Positions 6,524 to 27,958 of a DNA stretch of 36,472 bases are shown one piece after another. Both the position numbers and the translations under genes were made by a program. The DNA is from Chitinophagaceae bacterium (GTDB lineage: Bacteria; Bacteroidota; Bacteroidia; Chitinophagales; Chitinophagaceae), in contig CANGEZ010000002.1 in NCBI GenBank assembly GCA_947452875.1, positions 1 to 36,472 of the forward strand, in the 5' to 3' direction. Positions within the stretch are counted from its first letter, which is position 1; each line of letters opens with the position of its first letter. Under the pieces are notes generated by a model. That model did not search any database. It was not told the origin of the DNA and worked only from the letters and a program-made list of their open reading frames with translations.

Positions 6524-8047
6524 ATGAAATCAACAAATAGTATTCGTTCTATTATTATCGCTTCTTCATTAGGTACATTAATTGAATGGTACGATTTTTT
6601 TATTTTTGGTAGTTTGGCGGTAGTGATTTCCACAAAATTTTTTCCACAGGGAAATCAAACCGTTGCTTTTCTTTCAACTTTAGCCACTTTTGCTGCAGGA
6701 TTTGTGGTACGTCCTTTTGGTGCTTTGTTTTTTGGAAGATTGGGTGACCTGATAGGCAGAAAATATACCTTCATGGTCACATTGTTATTAATGGGTGGTT
6801 CTACTTTTTTAATTGGTTGTGTACCAAATTATGCCACTATAGGCTATTGGGCTCCCTTGCTGGTATTGATATTGAGATTGCTTCAAGGATTGGCACTAGG
6901 TGGTGAATATGGTGGTGCTGCTACTTACGTTGCCGAATACTCGCCAAGTAGTGAAAGAGGTTTCTGGACTTCTTGGATACAAATCACAGGAGCCGCAGGT
7001 TTATTTATTTCGCTGATTGTGATTTTAATTACCAGAAATATTCTGGGTACTACATCTTTTGAAGATTGGGGATGGCGCATTCCATTTTGGATTTCAATCA
7101 TAATGGTCATCATCTCTTTCTTCATTCGAAGAAATATGGAAGAATCTCCTGTCTATTCAAAAATAAAAGCAGAAGGGAAAGTTTCAAAGAATCCACTAAA
7201 AGAAAGTTTTGGTAATCGATACAATTTCAAATTTGTTTTAGTTGCCTTATTTGGTGTAACTATGGGACAAGGTGTAGTTTGTTACACTGGTCAATTTTAT
7301 GCCTTGAGTTTTATTGGAAAAGTGTGTGGTGTTGTCAACCAACAAACAGATTCAATCATGGCTATCGCATTGTTAGCCACAACTCCATTCTACATTGTGT
7401 TCGGAGGTTTATCAGATAAAATTGGAAGAAAACAAATAATGATGTTTGGCATTTTGCTCGCAATTATTGCTTACCGTCCTATTTACAGTGAAATATTTTC
7501 AAATACAGAATGTTCAAAAAAGATTGAAATCACTGAAAAGAGAAAAACAAAAATCACATCTTTTCCTATTGAAGGAAGTGCTAGCCGTTTGATTCAAACA
7601 ACAGTTACTACAAGTTTCTATACAGATGGAACAACAATGGAACTGATAAAAAAAGATACACTACTCTCCAACGGAATCGTCAAAGAAAATAAAGAAATAA
7701 AAAAATCGATAACGCTGAACAATACTAGTTATTGGACTATCGTATTACTTGTATTCATTCAGCTATTATTTGTAACTATGGTGTATGGTCCGATTGCTGT
7801 ATTTTTGGTAGAGTTGTTTCCAGCGAAAATAAGATACACATCTATGTCATTGCCTTATCATATTGGTAATGGTGTTTTTGGAGGGTTGTTACCAACAGTA
7901 GCTACTTATCTCGTTACTACAGCAAAATCAGAAAACAATCCTGAATGGTATTTGAATGGGTTGTGGTATCCTATAATCATAGGAGCTGTTTGCTTTGTGA
8001 TTGGAATGATTTTCTTAAATAAAACAAATAATAAAACCGAAGATTAA
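6524..8047 (+). CDS. MFS transporter, metabolite:H+ symporter type, with large loop insertion
   Basis: This 507-residue integral membrane protein has MFS signatures: GRLGDLIGRKYT at residues 71-82 (loop 2-3), a repeat of it at 295-304 (GLSDKIGRKQ), EWYDFF near the first helix, and RLLQGLALGGEYGGA around 118-132. These match the metabolite:H+ symporter group (ProP/KgtP/ShiA-like), whose members carry organic acids or osmolytes. Residues about 318-402 form a hydrophilic insertion of roughly 85 residues between helices of the C-terminal half, which is not usual in the classical members. The gene is followed 3 bp later by a small membrane protein gene. In this locus it could import a released uronate, a short oligosaccharide or a dicarboxylate, but the substrate cannot be read from the sequence. 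The divergent LacI-type operator suggests induction with the locus. Confidence 0.82.
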   Translation: MKSTNSIRSIIIASSLGTLIEWYDFFIFGSLAVVISTKFFPQGNQTVAFLSTLATFAAGFVVRPFGALFFGRLGDLIGRKYTFMVTLLLMGGSTFLIGCVPNYATIGYWAPLLVLILRLLQGLALGGEYGGAATYVAEYSPSSERGFWTSWIQITGAAGLFISLIVILITRNILGTTSFEDWGWRIPFWISIIMVIISFFIRRNMEESPVYSKIKAEGKVSKNPLKESFGNRYNFKFVLVALFGVTMGQGVVCYTGQFYALSFIGKVCGVVNQQTDSIMAIALLATTPFYIVFGGLSDKIGRKQIMMFGILLAIIAYRPIYSEIFSNTECSKKIEITEKRKTKITSFPIEGSASRLIQTTVTTSFYTDGTTMELIKKDTLLSNGIVKENKEIKKSITLNNTSYWTIVLLVFIQLLFVTMVYGPIAVFLVELFPAKIRYTSMSLPYHIGNGVFGGLLPTVATYLVTTAKSENNPEWYLNGLWYPIIIGAVCFVIGMIFLNKTNNKTED

Positions 8048-8280: not shown

Positions 8281-8853
8281 CTACGCGTTATAATCATAGT
8301 TAATCATAATCCCCCAGCTCTCATTTAATCTTTGTTCACTGTAATCAGCATCAAAATTAATACTGTGGATTCTAGCTCCATTACTCAAATGGAATTTTGC
8401 TACAGGCCCATCCCAAGATTCTAAATATTTTCTGATAGAAGGCTCATCCGGTTTCGTATTGAAACAATCTTTCATCAAAGGAGAAGGAGATAAGGTGTAG
8501 AAATTATTAATGCCTTTCAATCTGCAATGTTCTATCAAAGTTTTTATAGCCATTGTGCCCGCACCTTTTATAGTGCATGTCGACAATCTGAATATGGAAT
8601 AAAATATGGCAAAGGTAACATCGTATTTACTGCTGTATCCATCATCGTTCAACACTTCTGCCATATTATGAGGAATACGATTTCCAATTCTTGCACAAAT
8701 CATAAACTGAGGAATATCATCCTGCGCATAAACAAAAATGGTACGGTTTCCGGTTATTCTTCTTTTTATTGATATACCAGGATGCACGGGGTCTTCTTTT
8801 ATAAAATCAAACCATTCACTTTTAAATGCAGGGGTACCGTGTTCTATAATCAT
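8281..8853 (-). CDS. matA: Malonyl-CoA decarboxylase, catalytic GNAT-fold domain only
   Basis: The predicted reaction is malonyl-CoA to acetyl-CoA plus CO2. The 190-residue protein matches the C-terminal catalytic half of malonyl-CoA decarboxylases. It has AIFYSI (82-87), the TLSPSP loop with Ser122, and AKFHLSNGARIHSINF (152-167) with His155, followed by ESWGIMINY near the end. Ser122 and His155 correspond to the catalytic Ser and His of the family (Ser329 and His423 in the human enzyme). Characterised enzymes are about 400-490 residues with an N-terminal helical domain. That domain is absent here, and no matching sequence precedes it because madM ends 9 bp upstream. It is the last gene of the minus-strand train, after madL and madM, and completes the MatB route. 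Small domain-only forms may be normal in this phylum; I cannot verify that here. Confidence 0.83.
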   Translation of the reverse strand: MIIEHGTPAFKSEWFDFIKEDPVHPGISIKRRITGNRTIFVYAQDDIPQFMICARIGNRIPHNMAEVLNDDGYSSKYDVTFAIFYSIFRLSTCTIKGAGTMAIKTLIEHCRLKGINNFYTLSPSPLMKDCFNTKPDEPSIRKYLESWDGPVAKFHLSNGARIHSINFDADYSEQRLNESWGIMINYDYNA

Positions 8854-8862
8854 TTTATTTTT

Positions 8863-9615
8863 TTATGCTCCTATGATTTTGTTTACTATAAAATAAAGTA
8901 TTGATGGGCATAACAAGCAACCCATGGCTGTATGAAATGTTGCTGTTAAGGCTCCGTAAGGAACGAGTTTGATATCTGTTGCAGCTAGTCCAGCGGATAC
9001 GCCACTTGTAGAACCAACAACACCTCCAAAAATCATTGCGGATTGAGGGTCGCATACACCAAGCCGCTTCGCAAGGAAAGGTGTTGAGATGGTAACAATA
9101 ACAGACTTAATAACGCCTATGGCTATACTAATGGCAATCACTTCGGATGAAGCACCAACTGCTCCACCTGTAATAGGCCCAACAATGAATGTACAGGCAC
9201 CGCCACCGATCGTAGCAAAACTTTTGGCGTCAGTATATCCCATAGCATAACCTATAGATCCTCCAATCACAAATGCGATTACAGTTCCAATCAACAAACA
9301 GAAAATACCAACCAAGCCGGTCTTTTTAATTTCAGAAAAACTCGCGCCCATGGCAGTTGCGACAATAGCAAAATCTCTCATCATGGAACCACCAAGTATA
9401 GCCAATCCTGAAAATGCAGGAACAGATGCCAAACCTTTTTCACCACCACCAAAATAAGCCAATAACAAACCTACACTAATGGCAATTGCAGCACCAGGTA
9501 TTTTATGATTGGTCAATTTTTTGGAGATAATGTAAGACAAATACATCACGACTCCCACAAATAAGAATGCAAATACCAATCCATTTTTATCTAATATTCC
9601 GGCAAGATCTTTCAT
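8863..9615 (-). CDS. madM: Malonate transporter subunit MadM
   Basis: This 250-residue polytopic membrane protein has about seven hydrophobic segments. Diagnostic stretches include GILDKNGLVFAF at the N-terminus, IVATAMGASFSEIKK, TFIVGPITGGAVGASSEVIA and LAATDIKLVPYGALTATFH, all typical of MadM. MadM with MadL forms a malonate uptake system (malonate:Na+ symport in Malonomonas rubra). The gene follows madL with an 8-bp gap and precedes matA with a 9-bp gap, so all three should be on one transcript. The length fits the family, and the ATG at 9615 starts directly in the conserved N-terminus. Confidence 0.93.
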   Translation of the reverse strand: MKDLAGILDKNGLVFAFLFVGVVMYLSYIISKKLTNHKIPGAAIAISVGLLLAYFGGGEKGLASVPAFSGLAILGGSMMRDFAIVATAMGASFSEIKKTGLVGIFCLLIGTVIAFVIGGSIGYAMGYTDAKSFATIGGGACTFIVGPITGGAVGASSEVIAISIAIGVIKSVIVTISTPFLAKRLGVCDPQSAMIFGGVVGSTSGVSAGLAATDIKLVPYGALTATFHTAMGCLLCPSILYFIVNKIIGA

Positions 9616-9623
9616 CTTTTATT

Positions 9624-9992
9624 TTATTGTTGAGCTTTATTTTTTACATAACTGATGATCAAAGGCACGGTTGCAAAACATACTACAGTTGCGAATATGC
9701 CAACAAGTAGAGCCACCCAACCTCCCGACATTGCCGCCTTTACATTTTGTGAAGCGGACATCGCAACAACCACAGGAATATACATCGTACTCCAGAATAA
9801 CATCCCACTCTCGGTTTCAGGCTTCAAGATGCCTTTCTTTTTGAAGTAATCATTAAAAAGTATTAAAATCAACATGGCAAAACCGACACCACCTAAATTA
9901 CCACTCATACCCAATGATTTTCCTAGTTGATCGCCCAATACATGACCTACTAAAAAACATCCTGCTAAAATGGCTACTCCATATATTTTCAT
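9624..9992 (-). CDS. madL: Malonate transporter subunit MadL
   Basis: This 122-residue membrane protein has four hydrophobic segments. It begins MKIYGVAILAGC and has the family pattern GNLGGVGFAMLILI, ESGMLFWSTMYIPVVVAMSASQNV and a Gly-Gly turn before the last helices, which matches MadL in order and length. It is the small partner of MadM in malonate uptake across the inner membrane. Its position 21 bp after the two-domain esterase and directly before madM and matA places it inside the malonate module of the locus. Confidence 0.93.
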   Translation of the reverse strand: MKIYGVAILAGCFLVGHVLGDQLGKSLGMSGNLGGVGFAMLILILFNDYFKKKGILKPETESGMLFWSTMYIPVVVAMSASQNVKAAMSGGWVALLVGIFATVVCFATVPLIISYVKNKAQQ

Positions 9993-10013: not shown

Positions 10014-11582
10014 TTATTTACCTGTTGTAATTTTATTTACAGATTCTTTGATGGATTTTCCCCATAATTTATATCCTTCGTCATTGTAATGCAATTTATC
10101 ATCGCGATATAATGCAGCATTGGGTTTTCCATCAGCATTTAAAAATTGTTGCCCTGCATCTATATAAAATAAATTCGGTTGTGACGCTGTAAATGTTTTT
10201 ACCAAATTATTCGCCTGTTGAATTTTATCCCACACACTCCATCTTTTTTCGCTTGGCGAAATGGCCAACCATGTTATCGGTGTGGTTGGATATTTTTCAC
10301 GGATGGTTTTTACAATGTATTTATACAATTCCAGAACCTGATCAGGTGATTTGTCTTTTTCTGTTGCCGTGATATCATTTCCTACATAAATGAAAATGGC
10401 TTTGGGTTGATGAGGATATACAATACGCTTGATGTAATAAGAAACGTCTATCAAATTAGAACCGCCAAACCCTCGATGAATGATGTCTTTGTAATCCAAG
10501 TCTATTCTGATATTCTTCCACATTCTGATATAAGAACTTCCTATAAACATAATCGCATTATCAGCATATTTTTCTGCTTTATTCAAACTGTCGAATGTGT
10601 TGATGTCTTTGTCCCAACGAAAAACACCTTCCTCATTTTTACCTTTATTGATTTTGAGTTGGGTGTATAACCAGACCGCCATGGATTGCACACAACTGTC
10701 TTGTTTGGTTTTGTTGTTATCTAGCGTGTGTCCGGTACCGTAGAAAGGACGCCATCCTGTAGCGATTCCCAATGAAAGGCAATGCTGGAAGAGTATGTAA
10801 GGTCCATATTTGAATCCGTGGTAATCATAAGAGCTGTCATAAGGAACGGTCTTGTCTTCTGTTCCTGCAGTATTAAACAAAGGCACATCGCCTTTTTGAA
10901 TCCATTTGTAATCAATCATAGCACCCCATGCATTCATGACACCATTGACTTTGGAAGAATACCCTTCATTACCACTGTTGCCTTCAAGCGTTCCCCATTT
11001 TTTTTGATTAACGGCAGCAGGAATTTCATTTTCGTTCATGTAAGCAATAGCCAAACATGTTTTTGAGCCTGCCGAACTTCCGGTTAAGAATATCTGAGAA
11101 GTATCAATGCCATATTCTTCAGCATGTTTCCTGAAAAAACGAACAGCTGCTCTTCCATCCTGCTGGGCACGATATAAGGCTTCTGCATAATCTTTATTAG
11201 TCTTGGCTTCCTTTCCATCTTCATAACCAGATTTTTCAACACCCAAACGGTAATCTATAGACGCTGTAACATATCCTCTTTTTGCAAAAGAATTGCAAAC
11301 CATCGAACTATAACTACCATTTTTAGAATTGTTTTGAAAACCACCGCCATGTATAAAAATCAACAATGGTCGGTATTTCAAGGTATCTCCTCTGGAAGGA
11401 AAAATGACATCAAGCAATAATTTTTCTTTATCTCCCTTTATATTTATGGCTTCTCCATATTGAACATTGTTTACAGAATCTAAAGATGAAAAAACTTCAT
11501 CTTTAAATCTTTTCTGAGCAATTGTATGATTTGCACAAAAGCAAAACAAAAAAAGTAAAATGGATTTTAAAATCTTCATCAT
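10014..11582 (-). CDS. Secreted two-domain esterase: alpha/beta hydrolase fused to SGNH hydrolase
   Basis: This 522-residue protein has a signal peptide (about 1-22, ending TIAQ). The N-terminal domain (about 30-310) is an esterase-type alpha/beta hydrolase with the oxyanion motif HGGGF (78-82), nucleophile elbow GSSAG with Ser170, a probable acid Asp243 and His285 in GTGH. The C-terminal domain (about 335-520) is an SGNH/GDSL hydrolase with FIGSS (Ser350), RGFGGSN (block II), YVGND with Asn402 (block III) and DKLH with Asp495/His498 (block V). Both sites look intact. The protein should remove ester groups from an extracellular or periplasmic substrate. Its ATG overlaps the matB stop (ATGA) and madL/madM/matA follow, so malonyl half-esters are an attractive substrate. 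Acetyl or aromatic esters remain possible. Confidence 0.85.
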   Translation of the reverse strand: MMKILKSILLFLFCFCANHTIAQKRFKDEVFSSLDSVNNVQYGEAINIKGDKEKLLLDVIFPSRGDTLKYRPLLIFIHGGGFQNNSKNGSYSSMVCNSFAKRGYVTASIDYRLGVEKSGYEDGKEAKTNKDYAEALYRAQQDGRAAVRFFRKHAEEYGIDTSQIFLTGSSAGSKTCLAIAYMNENEIPAAVNQKKWGTLEGNSGNEGYSSKVNGVMNAWGAMIDYKWIQKGDVPLFNTAGTEDKTVPYDSSYDYHGFKYGPYILFQHCLSLGIATGWRPFYGTGHTLDNNKTKQDSCVQSMAVWLYTQLKINKGKNEEGVFRWDKDINTFDSLNKAEKYADNAIMFIGSSYIRMWKNIRIDLDYKDIIHRGFGGSNLIDVSYYIKRIVYPHQPKAIFIYVGNDITATEKDKSPDQVLELYKYIVKTIREKYPTTPITWLAISPSEKRWSVWDKIQQANNLVKTFTASQPNLFYIDAGQQFLNADGKPNAALYRDDKLHYNDEGYKLWGKSIKESVNKITTGK

Positions 11583-13063
11583 GATTCGAATAATTTTTTG
11601 ACATCATTTTTGGTAACCTTACCCATAGCATTTCTTGGCAACTCATCTACAATCAAATATTTCCTTGGAGTTTTATACGCCGCCATTTTTTCTCTGAGCC
11701 ATTTGTTTAATTCATCCGTGTTGATGTTTTCATCTTTATCAACAATGGCTGATACAATCAACTCGCCCCATTCATCATTAGGAATTCCTACAACCGCACA
11801 ATCAGTAATCAATTCATATTTTCTCAGCTCTTCTTCGATTTCCAATGCAGATATTTTATACCCGCCAGATTTGATAATGTCCACTGAATTGCGACCCATG
11901 ATCCTGTAATATCCGTCTTCCACAATCGCTACATCTCCTGTTTTGAACCAACCATCTGCTGTAAATTCTTTTGCAGTGGCTTCTGGTTTTCTCCAATATT
12001 CTTTAAAAACATTTTTGCCGCGCACTAAGATTTCGCCAGATTCTCCAGGTTTAACTTCATGATATTCTTCATTCACCAATTTAACATCTACACCTTCCAA
12101 AGGCTTTCCAATATAACCCGCTCTTCTTTCCTCATGATAGGGATTGCTAATGGCCATTCCGATTTCTGTCATGCCATATCTTTCCAACAACACATGTCCG
12201 CTGATGTTTTTCCATCTTTCCATTACAGAAACTGGCAATGCCGCCGAACCACAAACCATTAATCTGAATTTTGACATACATTCCGTCATTGATTGTTGCT
12301 GCGCCTCAGTTAACGATTCCCAGTAGGTGATGAGTTTGAAATAAATTGTAGGTACTGCCATGAAAACGTTGATGGCTCCTTTTTGAAAAAGTTGGAAGAT
12401 ATGTTCAGCAGAAAATCCGTTTATAAATTCACAAACAGCACCGCTCCATAATGAGCTTGACACCACATTAACGATTCCGTGTACATGATGCAAAGGCAAT
12501 ACGCAAATGGTGTGATCGTTCTGACTCCATTCCCAGGCTTTTACTAAAGTAGAAATCTGCGCTTCGAGATTTTCATGAGTGGTAACCACACCTTTTGGTT
12601 TATTAGTTGTGCCGCTCGTATATAAAATCATGGCGCTTCTTTTGGCATCAATATCAGGTAATGTTTTTGGAGCAACATTGTTTTCATCTCCCAAAACAAT
12701 CAAGCGGATATTTTTTTCAGCAGTAAGGTCTTTCAACAAAGCTTCATACTGAGGTGATACCACAATAATAGAAGCTTCTGTATCTTCAATCACATATTGC
12801 AATGATGGCAACGGATGCGTGAGACACATGGGAACGGTTATACCTCCTGCACGCCAGATGGCCCATTGCACTTTCACATAATCAAAACCAGGGTCTACCA
12901 TAAATCCGATACGCGCTTCATGTAAATCAGCATCAGTTTCGAGCAATAATGATGCAAATTGTTCAGAAGCTTCAAGCAATTGGGCATAACTGTAATCAAC
13001 ACCATTACTGATGATGGCTTTCTTGTTTGTATAACTGATTGCATTGCTGATAATCTCTAACAT
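11579..13063 (-). CDS. matB: Malonyl-CoA synthetase (MatB-type acyl-CoA ligase)
   Basis: The predicted reaction is malonate + ATP + CoA to malonyl-CoA + AMP + PPi in the cytoplasm. The 494-residue adenylate-forming enzyme has the P-loop TSGTTNKPKG (149-158), LPLHHVHG (189-196), ERYGMTE (294-300), TGD (375-377) and PRNAMGK with catalytic Lys482. Residues 296-325 (YGMTE, then SNPY, an Arg pair, GYIGKPLEGV) match the block characteristic of MatB, where Arg contacts the free carboxylate. Neighbouring madL, madM and matA strongly support malonate over other acids. The length is near the usual MatB size. It overlaps the downstream esterase gene by ATGA, which implies coupled translation, and uxaC lies 14 bp upstream. 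Confidence 0.87.
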   Translation of the reverse strand: MLEIISNAISYTNKKAIISNGVDYSYAQLLEASEQFASLLLETDADLHEARIGFMVDPGFDYVKVQWAIWRAGGITVPMCLTHPLPSLQYVIEDTEASIIVVSPQYEALLKDLTAEKNIRLIVLGDENNVAPKTLPDIDAKRSAMILYTSGTTNKPKGVVTTHENLEAQISTLVKAWEWSQNDHTICVLPLHHVHGIVNVVSSSLWSGAVCEFINGFSAEHIFQLFQKGAINVFMAVPTIYFKLITYWESLTEAQQQSMTECMSKFRLMVCGSAALPVSVMERWKNISGHVLLERYGMTEIGMAISNPYHEERRAGYIGKPLEGVDVKLVNEEYHEVKPGESGEILVRGKNVFKEYWRKPEATAKEFTADGWFKTGDVAIVEDGYYRIMGRNSVDIIKSGGYKISALEIEEELRKYELITDCAVVGIPNDEWGELIVSAIVDKDENINTDELNKWLREKMAAYKTPRKYLIVDELPRNAMGKVTKNDVKKLFES

Positions 13064-13077
13064 CTCAATAAATCTTT

Positions 13078-14526
13078 TTAAAAATTAAAATATTCTTTCG
13101 CATTGTGATAGCAAATATTTTGTACAATATTTCCAATCCATTTGGTATCATCGGGCAACAAACCTTTTTCCATTTCGTCGCCAAATAAATTGCATAAAAC
13201 TCTTCTGAAATATTCATGTCTAGAATATGAAAGAAAACTTCTGCTGTCGGTCAACATACCAACAAACGTGCTTACGGTACCCATATTTGATAAAGCGTTC
13301 AATTGCTTTTCAATACCATCTTTCTGATCTAAAAACCACCAGCCCGAACCATATTGCACTTTTCCTTTGGTGATCCCATCATTAAAATTATAACACATTG
13401 CAGCAAACACATCGTTATCTGCAGGATTGATATTGTATAAAATTGTTTTGGCTAATTGACCTTCTTTTTCAAGAGCATTTAAAAAATTTGCTAACGATGA
13501 CGCTTGACTGAAATCCCCAATTGTATCTACTCCCGCATCAGCACCCAATAAACTCAATAACCTTGAGTTGGTATTTCTGAGCGGACCCAAATGAAACTGT
13601 TGTACCCAGCCACGATTGTGATACATTTTGCATAAGGCAAGCAATACTGCACCAGCAAAGTTTCCAGGTGCAGAAAATGATGTAGCATTAGAACCTTGTA
13701 TGAACAATTCGAATTCTTTTTCAAGAGCGGTATTCATTTCAAATTGATCAGGCATTTTTGTTAAGCCATGATCGGAGATACGAGCACCATTTTCATGAAA
13801 ATAATCCATTCGTTTTTCGAGCGCCTCCAGCAATTGAGCAAATGTTGTGATACTCATGTCGGCAGCTTTTTCCAATTGATGGAAATAAGTAATGAAAGCT
13901 TCGCGGTTTCCAATATTGAAAATTTTATCGGGCCTAAAAGAAGGCAAAACATCTATTCCAATGTTATCTGCTTTTATTTTTTTATGATAAACCAAATCAT
14001 CACAAGGGTCGTCGGTTGTACCCACCATTTCTACCTGATAAGAGTTAAGAATGCCTTGAGTAGAATGGGTGTCTTGTTTTAGTATTTCATTGCAATGATT
14101 ATAAATTTTTATTGCATTGTCTTTGTTTAAATATTCATCAATACCAAAACTGTTTTTCAATTCCAATTGCGACCAGTGAAACAAAGGATTGCGAATGGTG
14201 TCCGGAAAACAAGTTGCCCAAGCCATAAATTTCTCTTCATCTGTTGTATCATTTCCAGTTATGAATTTTTCATTTACAGCCAAACCGCGCATGGCTCTCC
14301 ATTTGTAATGATCACCTTTCAGCCAGATTTCGGTAATAGAATCGAATTTTTTATTAGCCGCTATTTGATCAGGGGGTAAATGATTATGGTAATCAATGAT
14401 AGGCATATCTTTTGCAAAGTCGTGATACAACAGTTTTGCTGTTTCATTTTGCAATAAGAAATTATCATTGATAATAGTTCCAGATTTTTTTTGTTTTGTT
14501 CCGTTCGAAAACACAGCATTTTCCAT
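13078..14526 (-). CDS. uxaC: Uronate isomerase (glucuronate isomerase)
   Basis: This enzyme converts D-glucuronate to D-fructuronate, and also galacturonate to tagaturonate, in the cytoplasm. The 482-residue protein has the metal-site motif DYHNHLPP (residues 45-52, His47 and His49), GTTDDPCDDL (169-178), and a C-terminal LTDSRSFLSYSRHEYFRR segment, all hallmarks of UxaC. The length fits the family, with about 25 extra N-terminal residues before the conserved core, as in many Bacteroidota homologues. It is flanked by uxuA (15 bp upstream) and matB (14 bp downstream). Because uxuA and an SDR are present and no uxaA or uxaB is seen, the glucuronate branch is favoured. Confidence 0.94.
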   Translation of the reverse strand: MENAVFSNGTKQKKSGTIINDNFLLQNETAKLLYHDFAKDMPIIDYHNHLPPDQIAANKKFDSITEIWLKGDHYKWRAMRGLAVNEKFITGNDTTDEEKFMAWATCFPDTIRNPLFHWSQLELKNSFGIDEYLNKDNAIKIYNHCNEILKQDTHSTQGILNSYQVEMVGTTDDPCDDLVYHKKIKADNIGIDVLPSFRPDKIFNIGNREAFITYFHQLEKAADMSITTFAQLLEALEKRMDYFHENGARISDHGLTKMPDQFEMNTALEKEFELFIQGSNATSFSAPGNFAGAVLLALCKMYHNRGWVQQFHLGPLRNTNSRLLSLLGADAGVDTIGDFSQASSLANFLNALEKEGQLAKTILYNINPADNDVFAAMCYNFNDGITKGKVQYGSGWWFLDQKDGIEKQLNALSNMGTVSTFVGMLTDSRSFLSYSRHEYFRRVLCNLFGDEMEKGLLPDDTKWIGNIVQNICYHNAKEYFNF

Positions 14527-14541
14527 GTTTAAATATTTAAA

Positions 14542-15720
14542 TTATTTTGATTCCAAAACATTTCTCATGATTCCCAATTCCAGTCCTCTTAATTCTGCAA
14601 GTCCTCTTAATCTTCCAATGGCGGAATAACCCGGATTGGTTTTCTTTTTCAAATCATCCAACATTTGATGTCCATGATCTGGACGCATAGGAATAGAAAT
14701 ATTTCTGCTTTGCATGATGCTTACTATTTCTTTAATCACAGCATACATATCGGCATCTCCTTCCAGATGATTGTCTTCATAGAAATCACCGAATTCATTT
14801 CTTTTGGTATTTCTCAAATGAATGAAATTGATTCTGTCGCCGAATTGTTTTACCATGGCTGGCAAATCGTTGTCTTCTCTTACACCAAAAGAACCAGTAC
14901 AAAAACAAAGTCCATTATTTAAAGAAGGAACTGCATCAATCAATTGTTGAACATCAGCAGCAGTACTCACTACACGAGGCAAGCCCAATAAAGGATAAGG
15001 AGGATCGTCAGGATGTATCACCATCTTCACGTTGCATTCATCTGCTACAGGTACAATTTCACTTAAGAAATAAATCAAGTGAGCACGAAGTTTTGCTGCA
15101 TCGATTCCATCGTATTTATCCAAAGCTGCCTGAAATTCTTCAATAGAAAAACTCTCTTCGCTGCCAGGCAAACCTTTAATCATATTTTGTTTGAGTAATT
15201 GCTTCTCATTATCATTCATCTCGGAAAATCTTTTTGTTGCTCTTTCTATTTCTTCAGCAGCATAATCAGCAACTGCATTTTTTCTTTTCAAAATAAACAA
15301 ATCGAAAGCCACCACTTCTGCTCTTACATACAATAACGCCAAAGAACGGTCGGGCATTTCATAAGCCAAATTGGTTCTTGTCCAATCCATTACCGGCATA
15401 AAATTGTAAGTAACAATATGGATTCCGCACGCACTTAAATTTCTGATAGATTGTTTATAGTTGTTGATATAAATCTGATAATTTTCAGCATGTGTTTTTA
15501 TCGCTTCATGCACAGGAACACTTTCTACAACCGACCATACCATACCAGCAGCTTCAACTTCGGCTTTTCTTTTTTGTATTTCTTCTGTAGTCCATACTTC
15601 ACCGTTAGGTATATGGTGTAATGCGGTTACAACTCCTGCACATCCCGCCTGTCTAATATCCCACAAGCTCACTGGGTCATTCGGACCATACCAGCGCATG
15701 GTTTGTTGCATTTGGTTCAT
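14542..15720 (-). CDS. uxuA: D-mannonate dehydratase
   Basis: UxuA dehydrates D-mannonate to 2-keto-3-deoxy-D-gluconate. The 392-residue protein begins with the family signature [19 protein letters not shown] (residues 8-26) and contains [11 protein letters not shown] (233-243) and MRPDHGHQM (345-353), which carry the metal ligands of the TIM-barrel enzyme. The length matches UxuA (about 390-400). Met1, Met4 and Met8 are all possible starts. I keep the first, though Met4 or Met8 would also retain the signature. KDG kinase and KDPG aldolase, needed for the next steps, are not in the window. Confidence 0.95.
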
Positions 15721-15797: not shown

Positions 15798-17243
15798 TTA
15801 CCACTCATCAGTTCGGAACGACGAAGCCGGCAACCCAGCTGTGTTAAACAATTCCCCTTTCACAAAATCTTTCCATGCATACCTTACTGCTATTGGATTT
15901 GGAACCTTTTCACTCCATACATTCAGGGTTCCGTCTGATTGTATTTTTGCGTTTGCTTGATAGAAAATTTTATCCTCGCCGGCTATTTCAAAATTCACGA
16001 GATCATTTCCATAAGTGCTTAAGCCTCTTTCTGCATAATCGAATTTTATGGTGGCAATATTTTTATTAATGAACATTGAATTATAAATTGGACCACAATA
16101 TGAAATTCCTTTATAACCATATGTTTTTGCCAAAGCCCAATACAACAATCGCTGGCTCACTTCTTTTTTATAAGGAGGATGAATAAATGCTTCAGTGCCA
16201 ATGTCTGTAGTGATCGCCATTCCTGAATTAGGAATAATAGCCATGGCTTTCATCTGCGCTTCACGAACTCCTCTTACACTTTTTGTTGTGTCTTTGTTTC
16301 CATAAGGTGCAATTTGTACATAATAAAAAGGCAGGCTATCCTTCGATTGCCAATGCGTTCTCCAGCTCGAAACCATCTTAGGAAGTAGTTTTAAATAACC
16401 TGCCGGATCATAACGATTGGTTTCGCCCTGGTACCAAATAAAACCTTTAATGCCATATCCTGCAAATGGCGCAATCATTCCATTGAATAACGTAGTGGCC
16501 AATTTGTGTTTTTCTTTTGAGGTATCAATCTTGGTAGTATATTCTTTGATATCTTTTGGGAAATCAGTCAAGGATTCAGCATCCATCCAGGTTTGAATTT
16601 TGGTTCCCCCCCAGCTACTAACGATAATGCCTACAGGCACGTTCAGTTTTTTCTGTAACATCGAGCCATACATATAAGCAACCGCACTAAATTCAGAAGC
16701 AACTTCAGTGTTCGACATTTTCCATTCTCCTCCTACAGTATCTACAGGAATTACGTTTGCATTTCTTTTGGTGTCAAAAAGGCGTAGTTGATTGTTATCT
16801 GCTTCCAATAACATTTCATTGGAATTCGCTACCGGCTGATTTTTAAATCCACGCATGGGCATCTCCATATTGGATTGCCCCGAACAGAACCACACTTCCC
16901 CAATCAGTACATTGTTGATGGTAACGGTATCCTTGTCATATATGGTGATGGTATATGGGCCCCCTGCTGTAGGTGTTTTAATAAATGTCCTCCAACTGCC
17001 ACTCCTATCTGATACACAGGCATATTCAAGAATTGGATATTGCTTTGTACCGCCTGTTCTCCATGGACAAGAAATATGAATGATTGAAGAAGGATTGCCA
17101 CTTCCCCATATAGCGACTTGTGTATTCTGCTGTAACACCATGTTATCACTGAACATGGCAGGCATTATGATTTTTGCAAATGAACTGGTTTGTGTCAATG
17201 ACAAAATCAGTATAATGACGATATGATAGTTTCTTTTTTTCAA
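15798..17243 (-). CDS. Sialate O-acetylesterase-like SGNH carbohydrate esterase
   Basis: This 481-residue protein has a signal peptide (about 1-23). It has the family blocks MFSDNMVLQQ (30-39), EVWFCSGQSNMEMPM with Ser124, VSSWGGTKIQTWM (208-220), IWYQGETN (269-276) and IHPPYKKEV with His355. Family enzymes deacetylate sialic acids or acetylated sugars of plant polysaccharides. Oddly, the acidic residue usually three positions before the catalytic His is Ala352, and position 353 is Phe. Only Glu351 is acidic nearby, so activity or specificity may be altered. The gene sits 2 bp downstream of the GH2 gene, suggesting joint action on an acylated glycan. Sialic acid itself is unlikely to be the substrate, as no sialate genes are present. 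Confidence 0.85.
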   Translation of the reverse strand: MKKRNYHIVIILILSLTQTSSFAKIIMPAMFSDNMVLQQNTQVAIWGSGNPSSIIHISCPWRTGGTKQYPILEYACVSDRSGSWRTFIKTPTAGGPYTITIYDKDTVTINNVLIGEVWFCSGQSNMEMPMRGFKNQPVANSNEMLLEADNNQLRLFDTKRNANVIPVDTVGGEWKMSNTEVASEFSAVAYMYGSMLQKKLNVPVGIIVSSWGGTKIQTWMDAESLTDFPKDIKEYTTKIDTSKEKHKLATTLFNGMIAPFAGYGIKGFIWYQGETNRYDPAGYLKLLPKMVSSWRTHWQSKDSLPFYYVQIAPYGNKDTTKSVRGVREAQMKAMAIIPNSGMAITTDIGTEAFIHPPYKKEVSQRLLYWALAKTYGYKGISYCGPIYNSMFINKNIATIKFDYAERGLSTYGNDLVNFEIAGEDKIFYQANAKIQSDGTLNVWSEKVPNPIAVRYAWKDFVKGELFNTAGLPASSFRTDEW

Positions 17244-17245
17244 TT

Positions 17246-19936
17246 TTATTTTTTTCTTACAGCAATGCCATTCAATATGGCTTTACCTTTTTTGTTTTCA
17301 AATTTTATTTCTATTCCTTGATTATTTTTTGCTGTAATATTGAATTTTTTCATCACGGCTTCGCAGTAAGAAGCTTCTTTATTCAAATCAAAATCAGTCA
17401 AAACTTTATTGTTGTTGATGGTCACATCGAAAACTCTTTTCGCTGCTTCATGAAATTCAGGCTCTGCGAAATACAGTTCAATTTCATAATCACCATCAGG
17501 CATGTCTAAACGATAAAATTTTACATCATTTAAATAAGTGTACAACAATGGAGTCTTATCGGTGTTGGTAATCTTTCCTTTCAAACTAATGAATGATGGT
17601 GTTCCTGAGGTATAACCAAAACTGCCTTTTGAATAAGGCTTGTCTTCAATCCAAATATTCTTATCCTTGTCGATGTATTGCGCATTGGAGCCACAGTTGA
17701 TTTTCAATGTCGACTCATCTATTAAACGCGCAGCACCAAAATTGTTCAATAAAGTGTCATAACTTTTGTATGAAATGTAAAAAGTATCTGTTATTGTTTT
17801 TTTGTTGATAATTGCTTTTGCTATAATGCAATTTTTGATTGGTTCATTATATCTTATTCTGTCCAGATCATCGCTGATCAGAATATCATTAATCAACAAC
17901 AATTTCCACGTCGATTTTCCGATACCGTTAGTTTTCTTTTTACCGACGCTTTTACCATTCAAATACAAACTCACTTCTTTGGCGTTTGAATATACATCAA
18001 TAGTTGAGCTGTCGCCTTTGATTCCCTTTCTGATGGGCCAGTCGCGGGCTGCGATATACACCATCGGCTCGGGATTCCAGTTGGCTTTGTACAAATAGTA
18101 AACGTCTTTGGGCTTTCTGTCCCAAGTGTACATGCCTTTGTGATTGATGTTGGAAATGGTGCCACCGATATTCGGATTGCCAAAATCAAATTGATTCCAA
18201 ATAGCTGATCCCGCGAAGTATGGTCTTTGTTTGATTTGTTCTAAATAAGATTCATGGAAATACCTTTGATACTGACCGGTATTGTCAAGTCTTGTTGGAT
18301 GTTCTGTATTCACACTCAAATCCGATTCGGCGCCGTATTCACTTACCAAAATAATTTGATTGGGCTTGCTTTCATGTTTCTTGTCAAACGTTTTTCCAAA
18401 CTCTTCCACTTTACCACTGTACCAACCATTATAAATATTGTAGCCGGCAACTTGCGGAATCACATCAATTTTAAATTTATCATAATCGCTGCTCATGTGC
18501 ATGGCAAGTGTGCTGTAACGGATACTGTCTTCTTCACGAACGATTCTGTCTAATTTTTCTTCCGTCATTCTTACATTGTCACCGTAAATGGAATCGGTAA
18601 TTTTTTGCGATCGTTTGTTATAGTAATCGTTAAGAAATATTTCATTCATCGAACCCCATAGAATAACTGAAGGATGATTATAATGCTGACGAATCATCTC
18701 TCTGATCATAGTGCCACAGTTGTTTACAAATTCATCGGAGATGTTCATGTAATTGACCAGAGGAATTTCTTCCCATATAAACAAACCCATTTCATCAGCG
18801 CGTTTCAGCACATAAGGATCTTGTGGGTAATGTGCCAGACGCAAAAAATTACAACCCATGTTTTTGATGATTTGCAAATCTCTTTCATGGTCTTCTTCAG
18901 TCAATGCGCTACCCTTGCCCATCATGTCTTGATGACGATTGGTACCTTTTAAGACATATTTTTTTCCGTTTAGGATGAAACCACTGTCAGCATCAAAACG
19001 ATAACGCTTAAACGCCACTGAATTGTAAATGCTGTCCAAAATTTGGCCATCAACTATAATCTTTGTTTCCAGTCTGTATAAATAAGGAAGCTCAGGCGAC
19101 CACAACACTGTATGATTGATGGGTTCGCTCATCATCTGATAGGAACTGTCTTGTTTTCCGTCTATGTTTATTTGCTGATCGAAACTGGCAGTTAAGTTTT
19201 TAAACGGATCATACAATTTGTTTGAAATGGTAAGCTTATTAAAAAGTGGCAATTCATTGCTAATTCTGGTGTTTACTTTGATAATCGGCAATTGTTTTTC
19301 CAAATTGGGCATGGTTACATAAACACCTGATGCGCCATAATCATTCATTGAAAAATGAATTTTGTTTGTTGTAACCAAATGTACATTTCTATATACGCCA
19401 CCATATATGGTGTAACCAATATCCAATGGAGGAAGAAAAAGATTAGGCGCATTATTCACCATTAATGCAATCACATTTTCTGTACCATCAAGTTTTACAA
19501 ATGGCGTAATGTCAACATTGAAAGCGGTGTAGCCTCCTTTATGTCTTCCGGCGAAAGCACCATTTACAAAAACATCTGTAATATTATTGACACCGTCGAA
19601 TCTTAAAAAAAGCTTTTTGTTTTTAACAGATTCATTAAATGCCATCTTTTTTCTGTACCACACTATGCCTCTGTAATAATCATTATCATCATCGTATGGA
19701 TCTGTGCTATTGAAGCAATGAGGTATAGTTACTGATTCCCATTTTGAATCATCGTAATCTGCTCTGAATGGATCGGATGTTGGTTGTTGGGTAAACTTCC
19801 AGTTGTTATTGATTAAACTGTCATTTCTTGAAGACAATGACTGTGAAATAACCTGAGTGCTGAAAAACATTAAAAAACAAAACAGCAAATTTCTGTTTGC
19901 TGTTCTATTATTGATATGAAAGTTGTTATTCACCAT
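17246..19936 (-). CDS. GH2-family beta-glycosidase (glucuronidase or galactosidase type) with C-terminal malectin domain
   Basis: The frame is open from 19984, but I prefer the ATG at 19936. It avoids overlap with the upstream SDR gene and directly precedes a signal peptide ending FSTQVISQ. Residue numbers count from 19984. The order is sugar-binding jelly roll (about 52-205), Ig-like domain (about 210-330), TIM barrel (about 335-640) with acid/base Glu448 in GSMNE and nucleophile Glu549 in VSEYG, a linker, and a malectin-like domain (about 760-912). NHK at 614-616 followed by DRKPK aligns with the NxK motif of beta-glucuronidases, though some GH2 galactosidases have NDK there. Context (uxaC, SDR, uxuA) favours release of glucuronic acid. 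It probably acts in the periplasm. Confidence 0.87.
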   Translation of the reverse strand: MVNNNFHINNRTANRNLLFCFLMFFSTQVISQSLSSRNDSLINNNWKFTQQPTSDPFRADYDDSKWESVTIPHCFNSTDPYDDDNDYYRGIVWYRKKMAFNESVKNKKLFLRFDGVNNITDVFVNGAFAGRHKGGYTAFNVDITPFVKLDGTENVIALMVNNAPNLFLPPLDIGYTIYGGVYRNVHLVTTNKIHFSMNDYGASGVYVTMPNLEKQLPIIKVNTRISNELPLFNKLTISNKLYDPFKNLTASFDQQINIDGKQDSSYQMMSEPINHTVLWSPELPYLYRLETKIIVDGQILDSIYNSVAFKRYRFDADSGFILNGKKYVLKGTNRHQDMMGKGSALTEEDHERDLQIIKNMGCNFLRLAHYPQDPYVLKRADEMGLFIWEEIPLVNYMNISDEFVNNCGTMIREMIRQHYNHPSVILWGSMNEIFLNDYYNKRSQKITDSIYGDNVRMTEEKLDRIVREEDSIRYSTLAMHMSSDYDKFKIDVIPQVAGYNIYNGWYSGKVEEFGKTFDKKHESKPNQIILVSEYGAESDLSVNTEHPTRLDNTGQYQRYFHESYLEQIKQRPYFAGSAIWNQFDFGNPNIGGTISNINHKGMYTWDRKPKDVYYLYKANWNPEPMVYIAARDWPIRKGIKGDSSTIDVYSNAKEVSLYLNGKSVGKKKTNGIGKSTWKLLLINDILISDDLDRIRYNEPIKNCIIAKAIINKKTITDTFYISYKSYDTLLNNFGAARLIDESTLKINCGSNAQYIDKDKNIWIEDKPYSKGSFGYTSGTPSFISLKGKITNTDKTPLLYTYLNDVKFYRLDMPDGDYEIELYFAEPEFHEAAKRVFDVTINNNKVLTDFDLNKEASYCEAVMKKFNITAKNNQGIEIKFENKKGKAILNGIAVRKK

Positions 19937-19952
19937 TTTGTTTAATATAATT

Positions 19953-20768
19953 TTATACACCACTGAAAACACTGAATCCACCATCTACACCAATTTGTGT
20001 TCCCGTAACAAATTTTGAGGCGTCGCTTAATAAATAGACCAACGCCCCTATCAATTCATCAGGATTGCCGAATCTTTTAAACGGCGTGTTTTTGATAATA
20101 AGATTTCCGCGATCAGTTAATGACCCATCAGGATTCGTCAGCAAGGTTCTGTTTTGTTCTGTGAGAAAAAAACCGGGCATCAATGCATTCATTCTGATGG
20201 TGTCTCCAAATCGGTTTGCAGTTTCAACCGCGAACCATTGATTATACGCATCTATAGCGGCTTTGCCCATGCTGTATCCCAATACTTTGGTCAACGCACG
20301 TTTAGGACTAACCGAAGAAATGTTCACAATGCTTCCGCCTCCGTTTTGAGCCATTATGCTTCCAAAAATCTGGGTTGGAATCACTGTTCCCCAAACGTTT
20401 AATACAAGTGCATTTTTCATGCCTTCGATATTCAGTTCAAAAATATTTGCGCCATTTTGTAACACACCTTCCGGTATATTTCCACCTGCTGCATTTACAA
20501 GGCCATCTATTTTTCCGAAAACTGAAATGATTTTTTCTTTAGCGGCAATCATCTGTTCTTCGCTCAACACATCAGCTGAAATAGGCAAGGCCTTTCCGCC
20601 ATTGGCATTGATTTCTTCTGCTAGGTCATTTGCTTTATTAATGTCTCTTCCGATAATGACCACACTTCCGCCGGCAGCGGCAATGCCTCTTACAAAAGAT
20701 TTTCCCAGCACACCGGTGCCACCGGTTACGACTATGACTTTGTCTTTTAATGAAAACAATTTGTTCAT
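19953..20768 (-). CDS. SDR oxidoreductase, probable D-mannonate/D-fructuronate oxidoreductase
   Basis: This 271-residue short-chain dehydrogenase has the cofactor motif TGGTGVLG (15-22), NAAG (92-95), catalytic Ser151/Ser152 and the YxxxK pair Tyr165/Lys169. The C-terminus (VTGTQIGVDGGFSVFSGV) is classical. The family name alone does not give a substrate. Position does: it lies in one train with uxaC and uxuA, and the step between them (fructuronate to mannonate, normally UxuB of the long-chain mannitol dehydrogenase family) is otherwise missing. SDR proteins with this role are known to replace UxuB in other bacteria. It is separated by 4 bp from the upstream glycoside hydrolase gene. Confidence 0.8.
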   Translation of the reverse strand: MNKLFSLKDKVIVVTGGTGVLGKSFVRGIAAAGGSVVIIGRDINKANDLAEEINANGGKALPISADVLSEEQMIAAKEKIISVFGKIDGLVNAAGGNIPEGVLQNGANIFELNIEGMKNALVLNVWGTVIPTQIFGSIMAQNGGGSIVNISSVSPKRALTKVLGYSMGKAAIDAYNQWFAVETANRFGDTIRMNALMPGFFLTEQNRTLLTNPDGSLTDRGNLIIKNTPFKRFGNPDELIGALVYLLSDASKFVTGTQIGVDGGFSVFSGV

Positions 20769-20772
20769 TTTG

Positions 20773-22173
20773 CTAGTTGGTTTTTGAATCGAAAAGGCCG
20801 ATCAGTTGATACTTATGTGTGTTCAACTCCTTCATTTTATCAGCCAGTTCTTTATAAAATTGAAAGTTTAGGTTTACGAGTCCTTTATTAGAATCCTTGT
20901 TGGATTCGTCTGCTTTGGCATCATTTGGATCATTATCCTGATACCTGAACCAATGCCAGCCTACACAGTTTTTTGCTTGTAACAACTGCATGCAAAAATT
21001 CTGGTAATGGATGCCACGATCTTGTTGTGTTTTTACAATCCAGCCCGCACCGCTTTTGTTGCTCATGCCGGTTTCTTCTGCTTTTGTATAAAATTCTGTT
21101 ATGAAAAAAGGTTTGTTTGACCAATTGATCCAATCATTCAAGTAATCTTTTTTAGGTTTCCAGTCGCCATAATAATTGATGGAAATGATGTCTACAAAAG
21201 GTTCTGCCGCATCAAAAATATATTTGTTGTTTTTTGCGTTGGAATGGATTCTTGATCCGATATACATGTGATTGGGATCCGCTTTTTTGATGGCAGCAGC
21301 TACAATGGCATAATATTTTCCGGCCACATAACCGATGAATTGTTTTTTCAAATCGTCGGTCAATGAATCAACACCTTTTGATTTCATCCAGTCTTTCAAA
21401 GCGGTGAAACATTTATCAGCACTGTTGTTGTCATTGAGCAATGATTTCATTTCCGAATTGGTGAATGGCAATTCATTATCGGAGAAATGACCCAATAAGT
21501 TTTTGTCATTTTTCAAATAGGCGATAGTGGCACATTTGTCTTCACAGAAAGCAGGAAAATCTTTGTCGAAAATGAAAGAAAGTGTTGACAAAGATTTTAA
21601 ATCGGGATTTTTCTTTCTGCAATCAGAAGCAAAGCCGGCCAACAAATTCAATTGAGTAGTATAAGCAAAAGGATTTTGTGCAATGCGGTTATATTGTATT
21701 ATTGTTCCTGTATCGCTCCAGCAACCGGCGGTGTTGAAACCTAATTGTCTTAGCGTATCAATGGTTTTTGAAATCCAGTCTATTTTTCCGGAAAATCCTT
21801 CCGGTATAAAATCTGATTTTGAAATTTTGATGCCGTTTACGGCTGTAATAACAATGGCTTCTCCTTCAGGGTTGACCACAAACCATCTGTTGTTTATTTT
21901 TTCAGTGTGAAAAAAACTATTCTTTTTGGATGAAGCATTTACCGTTTTTTCTTTTTGTGAAGGATTGTAGCCAATAACATCCGTAACGCTGTTTGCAGGA
22001 AAAGATTGCCACTCTGAGTAATGAACTTGTTTGTTTTCATCTTTACTCCAGATTTTCGCTTGAATGACGGTACTGTCTGAAAATAATTTTTGAGATTGGG
22101 CATGGCTAATGATTGCTGAAGCAAACAATAACAAAATTGAAACCAATATTTTTTTCCTGCCCTTAATCATCAT
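20773..22173 (-). CDS. Secreted clan GH-A-like glycoside hydrolase, distantly agarase/GH50-like
   Basis: This 466-residue protein has a signal peptide (about 1-25, ending SHAQ). After an N-terminal beta region, the stretch NNRWFVVNPEGEAIVITAVNG (about 94-114) and the later FNTAGCWSD (146-153) resemble agarase-type TIM-barrel enzymes. Two conserved acidic spots fit clan GH-A: SDNEL with Glu234 as acid/base and FFITEF with Glu360 as nucleophile, plus VGWHWFRYQDND near the C-terminus. GH50 enzymes show similar DNE and EF motifs, but agar is an unlikely substrate here, and I cannot assign a CAZy family. It would act on the backbone or side chains of the glycan that enters through SusCD. It is 27 bp downstream of the DUF5017-like gene. 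Confidence 0.65.
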   Translation of the reverse strand: MMIKGRKKILVSILLLFASAIISHAQSQKLFSDSTVIQAKIWSKDENKQVHYSEWQSFPANSVTDVIGYNPSQKEKTVNASSKKNSFFHTEKINNRWFVVNPEGEAIVITAVNGIKISKSDFIPEGFSGKIDWISKTIDTLRQLGFNTAGCWSDTGTIIQYNRIAQNPFAYTTQLNLLAGFASDCRKKNPDLKSLSTLSFIFDKDFPAFCEDKCATIAYLKNDKNLLGHFSDNELPFTNSEMKSLLNDNNSADKCFTALKDWMKSKGVDSLTDDLKKQFIGYVAGKYYAIVAAAIKKADPNHMYIGSRIHSNAKNNKYIFDAAEPFVDIISINYYGDWKPKKDYLNDWINWSNKPFFITEFYTKAEETGMSNKSGAGWIVKTQQDRGIHYQNFCMQLLQAKNCVGWHWFRYQDNDPNDAKADESNKDSNKGLVNLNFQFYKELADKMKELNTHKYQLIGLFDSKTN

Positions 22174-22200: not shown

Positions 22201-23133
22201 TTATTGTACGACTACTGTAAATTCTTTGATAAAGGTTTTATCGAAATTCAGGCGTTTGTATGCTGCAACAAAAGTTGCTTTATACGTTCCTGGCTTGTTA
22301 TATACATAATTGAATTTTGCCAAAGGACTTTGTGTGATATTTTTGATCACAATAGGTGCATCAGGTGCTACAGCACTAGGATTCAATGGACGAGATACAT
22401 GCCAATATTGAGAACCGAAAGGCTCTGTTGTTGAATTTGAAATTTTCAAATAAGTAGATGATGTGGTCACACGAGGTGTTGGATCTGTGAATTGAACGGG
22501 CGCGAAATTTCCGGAAGTAATTTGATTAGAATCGATAACCGCTGCATTGGGAACGCCGTTGGTGAATACATTGTACAACGCCAGTTTACCAACGCTCCAA
22601 ACGATATTTGTAGGTTTGGTATTTTCATATCTGAAAGCAAGGTAACATGGTTGACCCGGTATCACACTATCTGTCAAATCAACAAAATCTCCTGAGGTAG
22701 GACCTGAAGGATAAAAGGTACTGAGTGTAGATGCAGGTGTTGGAAATAAAAACAAATCGGTAAGTCTTTTCCAATGCGCATTGGCAACATTCGTTGAATC
22801 ATAAATGCCGGTGAAATCATTGGATAACATCACATCCAAAGTATCTGCAGGTTGAAACTGAACTCTTGTTTCAAATTTTAATTGGAGTCTCCCACCCTGT
22901 AGAATTGTTCTTTCTCTATTTGCATATTCATGACCAATTTCACCAGAGTAAAAACTAATCACATCAGGATTTTCAGAAAGAAGGAATTGAGCTGTATCAG
23001 CACTATCAATTGTTGCAACAGGCAAGCTGGCATCAAATGAGTAACCATCTTCAGTATATCCCGGAACGTTCTTCTTGCAAGAAAAAAGAAATGCAAGGGA
23101 AATCATACCTGTAAAAAATAAAGTCTTTTTCAT
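22201..23133 (-). CDS. DUF5017-like surface lipoprotein, candidate glycan-binding protein
   Basis: This 310-residue lipoprotein has a lipobox ending FLFSC with Cys19, followed by KK. The mature part is beta-rich. It contains DVISFYSGEIGHEYANRER (residues about 57-75), which I associate with DUF5017, and ends with a PKD-like stretch (KFNYVYNKPGTYKATFVA). The position directly after susD is where Bacteroidota place SusE/SGBP-type surface glycan-binding lipoproteins, so binding of the target glycan at the cell surface is inferred. It has no recognisable catalytic motif. Gaps are 29 bp to susD and 27 bp to the glycoside hydrolase gene. Confidence 0.72.
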   Translation of the reverse strand: MKKTLFFTGMISLAFLFSCKKNVPGYTEDGYSFDASLPVATIDSADTAQFLLSENPDVISFYSGEIGHEYANRERTILQGGRLQLKFETRVQFQPADTLDVMLSNDFTGIYDSTNVANAHWKRLTDLFLFPTPASTLSTFYPSGPTSGDFVDLTDSVIPGQPCYLAFRYENTKPTNIVWSVGKLALYNVFTNGVPNAAVIDSNQITSGNFAPVQFTDPTPRVTTSSTYLKISNSTTEPFGSQYWHVSRPLNPSAVAPDAPIVIKNITQSPLAKFNYVYNKPGTYKATFVAAYKRLNFDKTFIKEFTVVVQ

Positions 23134-27800: not shown

Positions 27801-27958
27801 GCGATGTTGAGCTTGGATCCTTTGATTTGAATTGTGGTACCCGACAATGGACCGTTTTCATCACTGAATACTTTACCGGTTACTTTTCTGTTTTGTGCAT
27901 GAGATGCAAAGGCGATAAATAACAGGAAGGCTGCAAATGCAGCAAAGCGTTTACACAT
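24818..27958 (-). CDS. susC: SusC/RagA-family TonB-dependent outer membrane transporter
   Basis: This 1046-residue TonB-dependent importer has a signal peptide (about 1-21), a carboxypeptidase-regulatory-like beta-sandwich (about 25-105) and a plug domain (about 115-235) with the SusC signature [26 protein letters not shown] region. A 22-strand barrel follows and ends FGLNLNL. It imports the oligosaccharide or glycoconjugate captured by the SusD-like lipoprotein encoded next. It starts only 19 bp after the stop of the secreted beta-helix gene, so it is probably not the first gene of its transcript. The symbol is used in the family sense. Confidence 0.97.
   Translation of the reverse strand: [1046 protein letters not shown]

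Follow-up and report, generated by a model that had tools for sequence, protein, structure and literature searches.

A two-domain esterase linked to malonate uptake and activation genes suggests malonyl-ester salvage from glycans in Chitinophagaceae

A gene for a protein with two esterase domains of different folds, here named EST2, is located among malonate genes in the window, i.e. in the whole stretch of 36,472 nt of DNA from a Chitinophagaceae bacterium (contig CANGEZ010000002.1) that was analysed here. Judging from the protein sequence and from the neighbours of the gene in related genomes, EST2 appears to be an exported, probably periplasmic esterase which frees malonate from a malonylated glycan or from its oligosaccharides, and we give this reading a probability of about 0.7. 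The initial annotation had proposed that EST2 feeds malonate to MadLM. This was guilt by association at one locus; gene linkage, enrichment of MadM and domain decay in other genomes now lend the proposal comparative support and make it stronger. The features of the window are listed in Table 1.

Table 1. Features of the EST2 locus in the window and the basis of their assignment
Feature	Position	Strand	Basis
Metabolite:H+ symporter-type MFS transporter, divergent from the operon	6524..8047	+	TIGR00883
Short malonyl-CoA decarboxylase, 190 aa, C-terminal catalytic part only	8281..8853	-	PF05292 E 1.9e-23; PDB 4ksf/4ksa MCD matches
MadM, malonate/sodium symporter subunit	8863..9615	-	TIGR00808 above cut-off, PF03818 E 5e-103
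MadL, malonate/sodium symporter subunit	9624..9992	-	TIGR00807 above cut-off, PF03817
EST2, two-domain esterase, 522 aa	10014..11582	-	Pfam PF20434 + PF13472, catalytic residues, aligned orthologues, structure model, Foldseek
MatB, malonyl-CoA synthetase (AMP-forming)	11579..13063	-	NCBIfam PRK07514 best model, PDB matches
UxaC glucuronate isomerase	13078..14526	-	PF02614, PRK02925
UxuA mannonate dehydratase	14542..15720	-	TIGR00695
SASA-type esterase (PF03629), second esterase of the operon	15798..17243	-	Pfam
GH2 glycosidase with malectin domain	17246..19984	-	Pfam, PDB matches, N-x-K motif by eye
SDR oxidoreductase, probable fructuronate/mannonate reductase step	19953..20768	-	PF13561; adjoins UxuA/UxaC in relatives
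GH50-like glycoside hydrolase	20773..22173	-	PDB 5t3b E 5e-63; beta-agarases 4bq2 7e-23
DUF5017 protein of SusC/D locus	22201..23133	-	PF16409
SusD	23163..24788	-	PF07980/PF14322
SusC TonB-dependent transporter	24818..27958	-	PF07715/PF00593/PF13715
LacI-family regulator, locus edge	34372..35388	+	profile match

The N-terminal part of EST2 (approximately residues 25-312) is an alpha/beta hydrolase of the BD-FAE type and the C-terminal part (approximately residues 320-515) is an SGNH hydrolase. Both Pfam matches exceed their gathering scores: BD-FAE (PF20434) matches residues 57-220 with an E-value of 3.6e-24 and 85.9 bits (gathering score 26.8), and Lipase_GDSL_2 (PF13472) residues 366-506 with an E-value of 6.5e-12 and 46.7 bits (gathering score 32.9). 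The first domain contains the triad GSS(170)AG, D243 and GH285, and the second the blocks GSS(350), the G374 region, GN402D and D495-x-x-H498. The two esterase folds with intact motifs described in the initial annotation are therefore confirmed, and all seven residues named there (Ser170, Asp243, His285, Ser350, Asn402, Asp495 and His498) were found at their positions. These catalytic residues are invariant across the malonate-linked orthologues that are not cut by a contig edge, with the exception of L154 and of the frameshifted L155. Since both domains are retained in orthologues at 45-85% identity, we regard the gene as real. It overlaps matB by 4 bp (ATGA) and is separated from madL by 21 bp, in agreement with the placement between these two genes suggested earlier. 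Read by eye, the N-terminus is signal-peptide-like with an apparent cleavage site after ...IAQ (IAQ/KR), and no conserved lipobox cysteine was seen among the aligned orthologues. Basic residues that might bind the free carboxylate of a malonyl group were looked for; conserved arginines (R71, R112, R138, R148 and R278; R353, R370, R386, R428 and R447) were found, most of which are also present in single-domain relatives.

The structure model of full-length EST2 was weak (pLDDT 66), while modelling by domain was better (78). In Foldseek comparisons the N-terminal domain was near Thermogutta Est2 (5ao9) and the BD-FAE carbohydrate esterases (PF20434; PDB 6tkx and 6xyc), with which it shares the fold and whose Pfam cut-off it passes; these relatives differ from EST2 in being single-domain or GH-fused proteins, and their identity to it is below 21%. 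To our knowledge, no link of the BD-FAE family to malonate has been reported. The C-terminal domain was near the sialate O-acetylesterase of Phocaeicola vulgatus (7pzg/6njc) and PAF acetylhydrolase. It has their fold and S-G-N-H blocks, but these enzymes are free-standing, act on acetyl substrates and are at most about 24% identical to EST2.

Fused esterases with two folds are already known; what is new here is that the predicted substrate is a malonyl ester and is connected with the uptake of malonate. The acetyl-feruloyl esterases of the CE6-CE1 type from Bacteroidetes are multicatalytic, and the removal of two acyl groups has been proposed for them (Kmezik et al. 2020, PMC7110780). Like them, EST2 is a Bacteroidota PUL enzyme in which two esterase domains of different families are fused, but it has a BD-FAE-type domain followed by a GDSL_2-type domain, whereas the known fusions have CE6 followed by CE1, belong to xylan loci and release acetyl and feruloyl groups (PMC7110780). 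According to Pfam, EST2 comprises BD-FAE and then GDSL_2 and not SASA/CE6 and then a CE1-type domain; it is analogous to the CE6-CE1 fusions and not a member of this group. The text of PMC7110780 does not contain the string "malon-".

The assignment of the malonate genes next to EST2 is based on the following observations. MadL and MadM pass the NCBIfam equivalog cut-offs (143.1 vs 113.5 bits and 325.7 vs 236.3 bits, respectively), and the window genome (2.26 Mb) has a single MadM. For MatB the malonyl-CoA synthase PRK07514 is the top NCBIfam model, although the score is below the cut-off (385.7 vs 558 bits). The PDB matches of MatB at ranks 1-5 are malonyl-CoA synthetases (4fuq, 3e-76), followed at ranks 6-7 by feruloyl-CoA synthetase (8weu, 2e-63), and the gap between 260 bits to malonyl-CoA synthetases and 218 bits to feruloyl-CoA synthetases is only moderate. 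Thus, an acid other than malonate is conceivable as the substrate of the window MatB, but MadLM, the decarboxylase and the second ligase lineage MatB2 described below all point to malonate. The window combines a malonate-specific transporter with an adjacent malonyl-CoA synthetase, as is expected for the proposed malonate salvage module. The 190-aa decarboxylase does not have the usual N-terminal helical domain; its orthologues (50-92% identity) are found beside EST2 in seven other loci (L026, L093, L094 and L157-L160).

Known malonate utilisation gene sets use free malonate. The window shares transporter and ligase families with these sets (madLM, matB and malonyl-CoA decarboxylase), but differs from them in the exported-type esterase between matB and madL, in the glycan locus and in the short decarboxylase.

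The genes for SusC and SusD, for uronate metabolism and for malonate are on one strand, and this suggests that the locus handles a uronate-containing glycan plus malonate. The GH2 protein has, by eye, the N-x-K motif of beta-glucuronidases, which is however also present in related beta-galactosidases, and its nearest solved structures include beta-glucuronidases. The GH50-like protein is secreted and has no Pfam match, its assignment being derived from a PDB sequence search (5t3b). The MFS transporter at the other side of the malonate genes appears to have some 80 extra residues inserted near positions 330-400 of the protein; this transporter type adjoins the EST2 locus, or that of a one-domain derivative, in several relatives within the genus, including those that lack malonate genes.

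To see the window in a wider context, we analysed 49 distinct loci encoding EST2 or a one-domain derivative; 37 neighbourhoods were read in the wider set. Full-length EST2 is present in 8 of 93 genomes of the window's genus, and EST2 genes also occur in 28 of 147 genomes of a second genus and in further members of the family. A malonyl-CoA synthetase gene adjoins EST2 or is one gene away from it in 35 of the 49 loci, and this linkage exists in three arrangements: matB-EST2-madL-madM (18 loci), matB-EST2-MFS (8 loci, of which four additionally encode the short malonyl-CoA decarboxylase) and EST2-MFS-MatB2 (5 loci); in the remaining four the contig stops after EST2. MatB2 shares approximately 33% identity with the MatB of the window; at E<=1e-70 it has five PDB matches, each of them a malonyl-CoA synthetase. 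EST2 directly adjoins matB or the MFS gene, often with an overlap. The transporter, the ligase lineage and the glycosidases are thus exchanged while malonate activation is kept, which argues against hitch-hiking. In L132, L134, L135 and L140 a gene for a zinc alcohol dehydrogenase (L134:12305-13348) lies directly upstream of matB-EST2-MFS. The MFS carrier L092:8267-9451 and its orthologues (L128-L132, L134, L135, L140 and L157-L160) replace MadLM beside EST2 and malonyl-CoA synthetase, and this carrier is a candidate for a new malonate transporter.

MadM is rare in Bacteroidota, exceeding the cut-off in 6 of 396 genomes including that of the window. Within the window's genus it was found in 4 of 8 EST2 genomes vs 1 of 85 others (p=1.2e-4, with rows that share ancestry and are not independent). 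The MadM tree, which includes six of the 18 loci with the first arrangement, indicates a single origin of the cassette with inserted EST2 (support 100/99). Where matB, madL and madM could all be read in a stand-alone operon (seven cases: L033, L035-L039 and L088), the three genes are adjacent, with no EST2 between them. In the distant EST2 genomes G457 and G458, matB-madL-madM is present and unlinked to EST2.

Other partners of EST2 were also considered. In the fetched stretch, 11 of the 35 loci with malonate linkage have no uronate genes. Malonate is hence the more frequent partner of EST2, and uronate linkage was rejected as the sole driver of its conservation. Similarly, the SASA esterase is missing from L027, L028 and most related, malonate-linked loci; it was therefore rejected as the main malonate-releasing candidate, and EST2 is the constant esterase.

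The loss of one catalytic domain provided a further line of evidence. Of the 12 loci without malonate genes, 8 have one catalytic centre that is missing, dead or altered, vs 2 of the 35 loci with them. Fisher's test gave p=5.8e-5 (4.4e-5 without the rows cut by contig edges, and 0.0017 in a conservative version with G510 and G729 scored as intact), to be read with the limitation that the rows are not independent, since the malonate label changes about seven to eight times on the tree and several losses are common to one clade. The alpha/beta hydrolase is absent in G407 and G495, both of which fall within the EST2 clade, dead in G490 (S170E, H285Y) and altered in G510 (H78D, GNSFG), with the SGNH domain kept in each case. 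The SGNH core was removed by in-frame deletion in G542, G623 and G598, and in G729 the D-x-x-H block is missing. Among the malonate-linked loci the damaged proteins are those of L155, with a frameshift, and L154, in which a copy with a dead alpha/beta hydrolase (S170A, H285N) stands between matB and madL. L154:1763-3172 and L147 (G626) belong to one MAG with several EST2 copies or fragments. Both sites are intact in the EST2 of G400 and G406 (80-81% identity), where neither MadM nor MatB was found genome-wide, and also in G586, where no malonate genes were found nearby; these three limit the inference from domain decay. A relative-rate test of the malonate-less G400/G406 was dropped, because EST2 seemed accelerated but UxuA likewise, and the difference between the domains was unclear.

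It is possible, but in our view unlikely, that EST2 is an ordinary acetyl or aromatic-acyl carbohydrate esterase of the glycan locus, and that the malonate genes are there for another reason, e.g. for the use of free environmental malonate. This would fit the nearest solved relatives, which are BD-FAE/HSL-type esterases and sialate O-acetylesterase/PAF-AH-like SGNH enzymes, and the closest characterised families, which comprise acetyl, feruloyl or general esterases. It would also fit the existence of MadLM-MatB in stand-alone operons, the orthologues without malonate genes in G400, G406 and G586, and an alpha/beta-hydrolase-only relative in the GH50/GH3 locus L099, in a genome without MadM (at L099:9822-14622 this gene is followed by GH50-like and GH3 genes and SusC). 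However, this reading is weakened by the linkage, in which EST2 adjoins matB or its MFS gene, often with an overlap, in three arrangements with differing transporters and ligases, and by catalytic-site decay mainly where the malonate genes are missing. Quite improbable is a true substrate in the form of a small malonylated glucuronide, such as a flavonoid malonyl-glucuronide, instead of a polysaccharide. Malonylated glycosides are common in plants, and the operon has both the GH2 enzyme with the beta-glucuronidase-like N-x-K and the uronate genes, but SusC/SusD and the GH50-like, GH3 and beta-helix proteins suggest a polymer, and several malonate-linked loci have no GH2.

If EST2 indeed releases malonate from a glycan, there is an even chance that the work is divided, one domain being the malonyl esterase and the other releasing a further type of group, probably acetyl, from the same or a neighbouring sugar. 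The CE6-CE1 acetyl-feruloyl enzymes are a precedent (PMC7110780), and the malonate-less loci that kept only one intact domain agree with such a division: the SGNH domain in G407, G495, G490 and G510, or, after deletion of the SGNH core, the other one in G542, G623 and G598. Since the losses go both ways and L154 keeps the mat-mad genes beside a dead alpha/beta hydrolase, we rejected an assignment of the malonyl activity to either domain by the loss pattern.

In the proposed mechanism for the release of malonate by EST2, SusC/SusD would bring the malonylated glycan substrate in, and EST2 would cut the malonyl ester with one domain, or with both at different positions, and perhaps remove a second acyl group as well. 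The free malonate would be imported by MadLM, or by the unrelated MFS carrier in other species, and converted by MatB to malonyl-CoA, which could then yield acetyl-CoA by means of the short decarboxylase or enter fatty-acid synthesis straight away. In parallel, the deacylated uronate sugar would go to the neighbouring uronate genes.

Beyond the window, we consider it rather probable that these loci represent an undescribed malonyl-ester salvage module, in which two-domain malonyl esterases feed MadLM or the MFS carrier and MatB, in part with the short decarboxylase, in glycan loci mostly of Chitinophagaceae. Malonylated uronate-containing polysaccharides would then be a common natural substrate, and the exchanged MFS family would be a new malonate carrier. 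Several of the MAGs with EST2 appear to originate from lake or other environmental samples. In the open-access literature we found no description of a malonyl esterase, of malonate genes with a PUL or of a similar salvage module, which is weak evidence, and no malonylated algal or bacterial polysaccharide.

Among the polysaccharide decorations that Bacteroidota of the gut and the environment are known to use, acetyl, methyl, feruloyl and sulfate groups predominate. A conserved esterase linked to the import of malonate would indicate that a malonylated glycan exists in the environment and would offer the first genetic handle on its degraders. Candidate enzymes are supplied by these loci, namely putative demalonylases, the 190-aa malonyl-CoA decarboxylase and the possible new MFS malonate carrier. 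Last, malonate released from glycans would enter fatty-acid synthesis as malonyl-CoA, thereby bypassing acetyl-CoA carboxylase.
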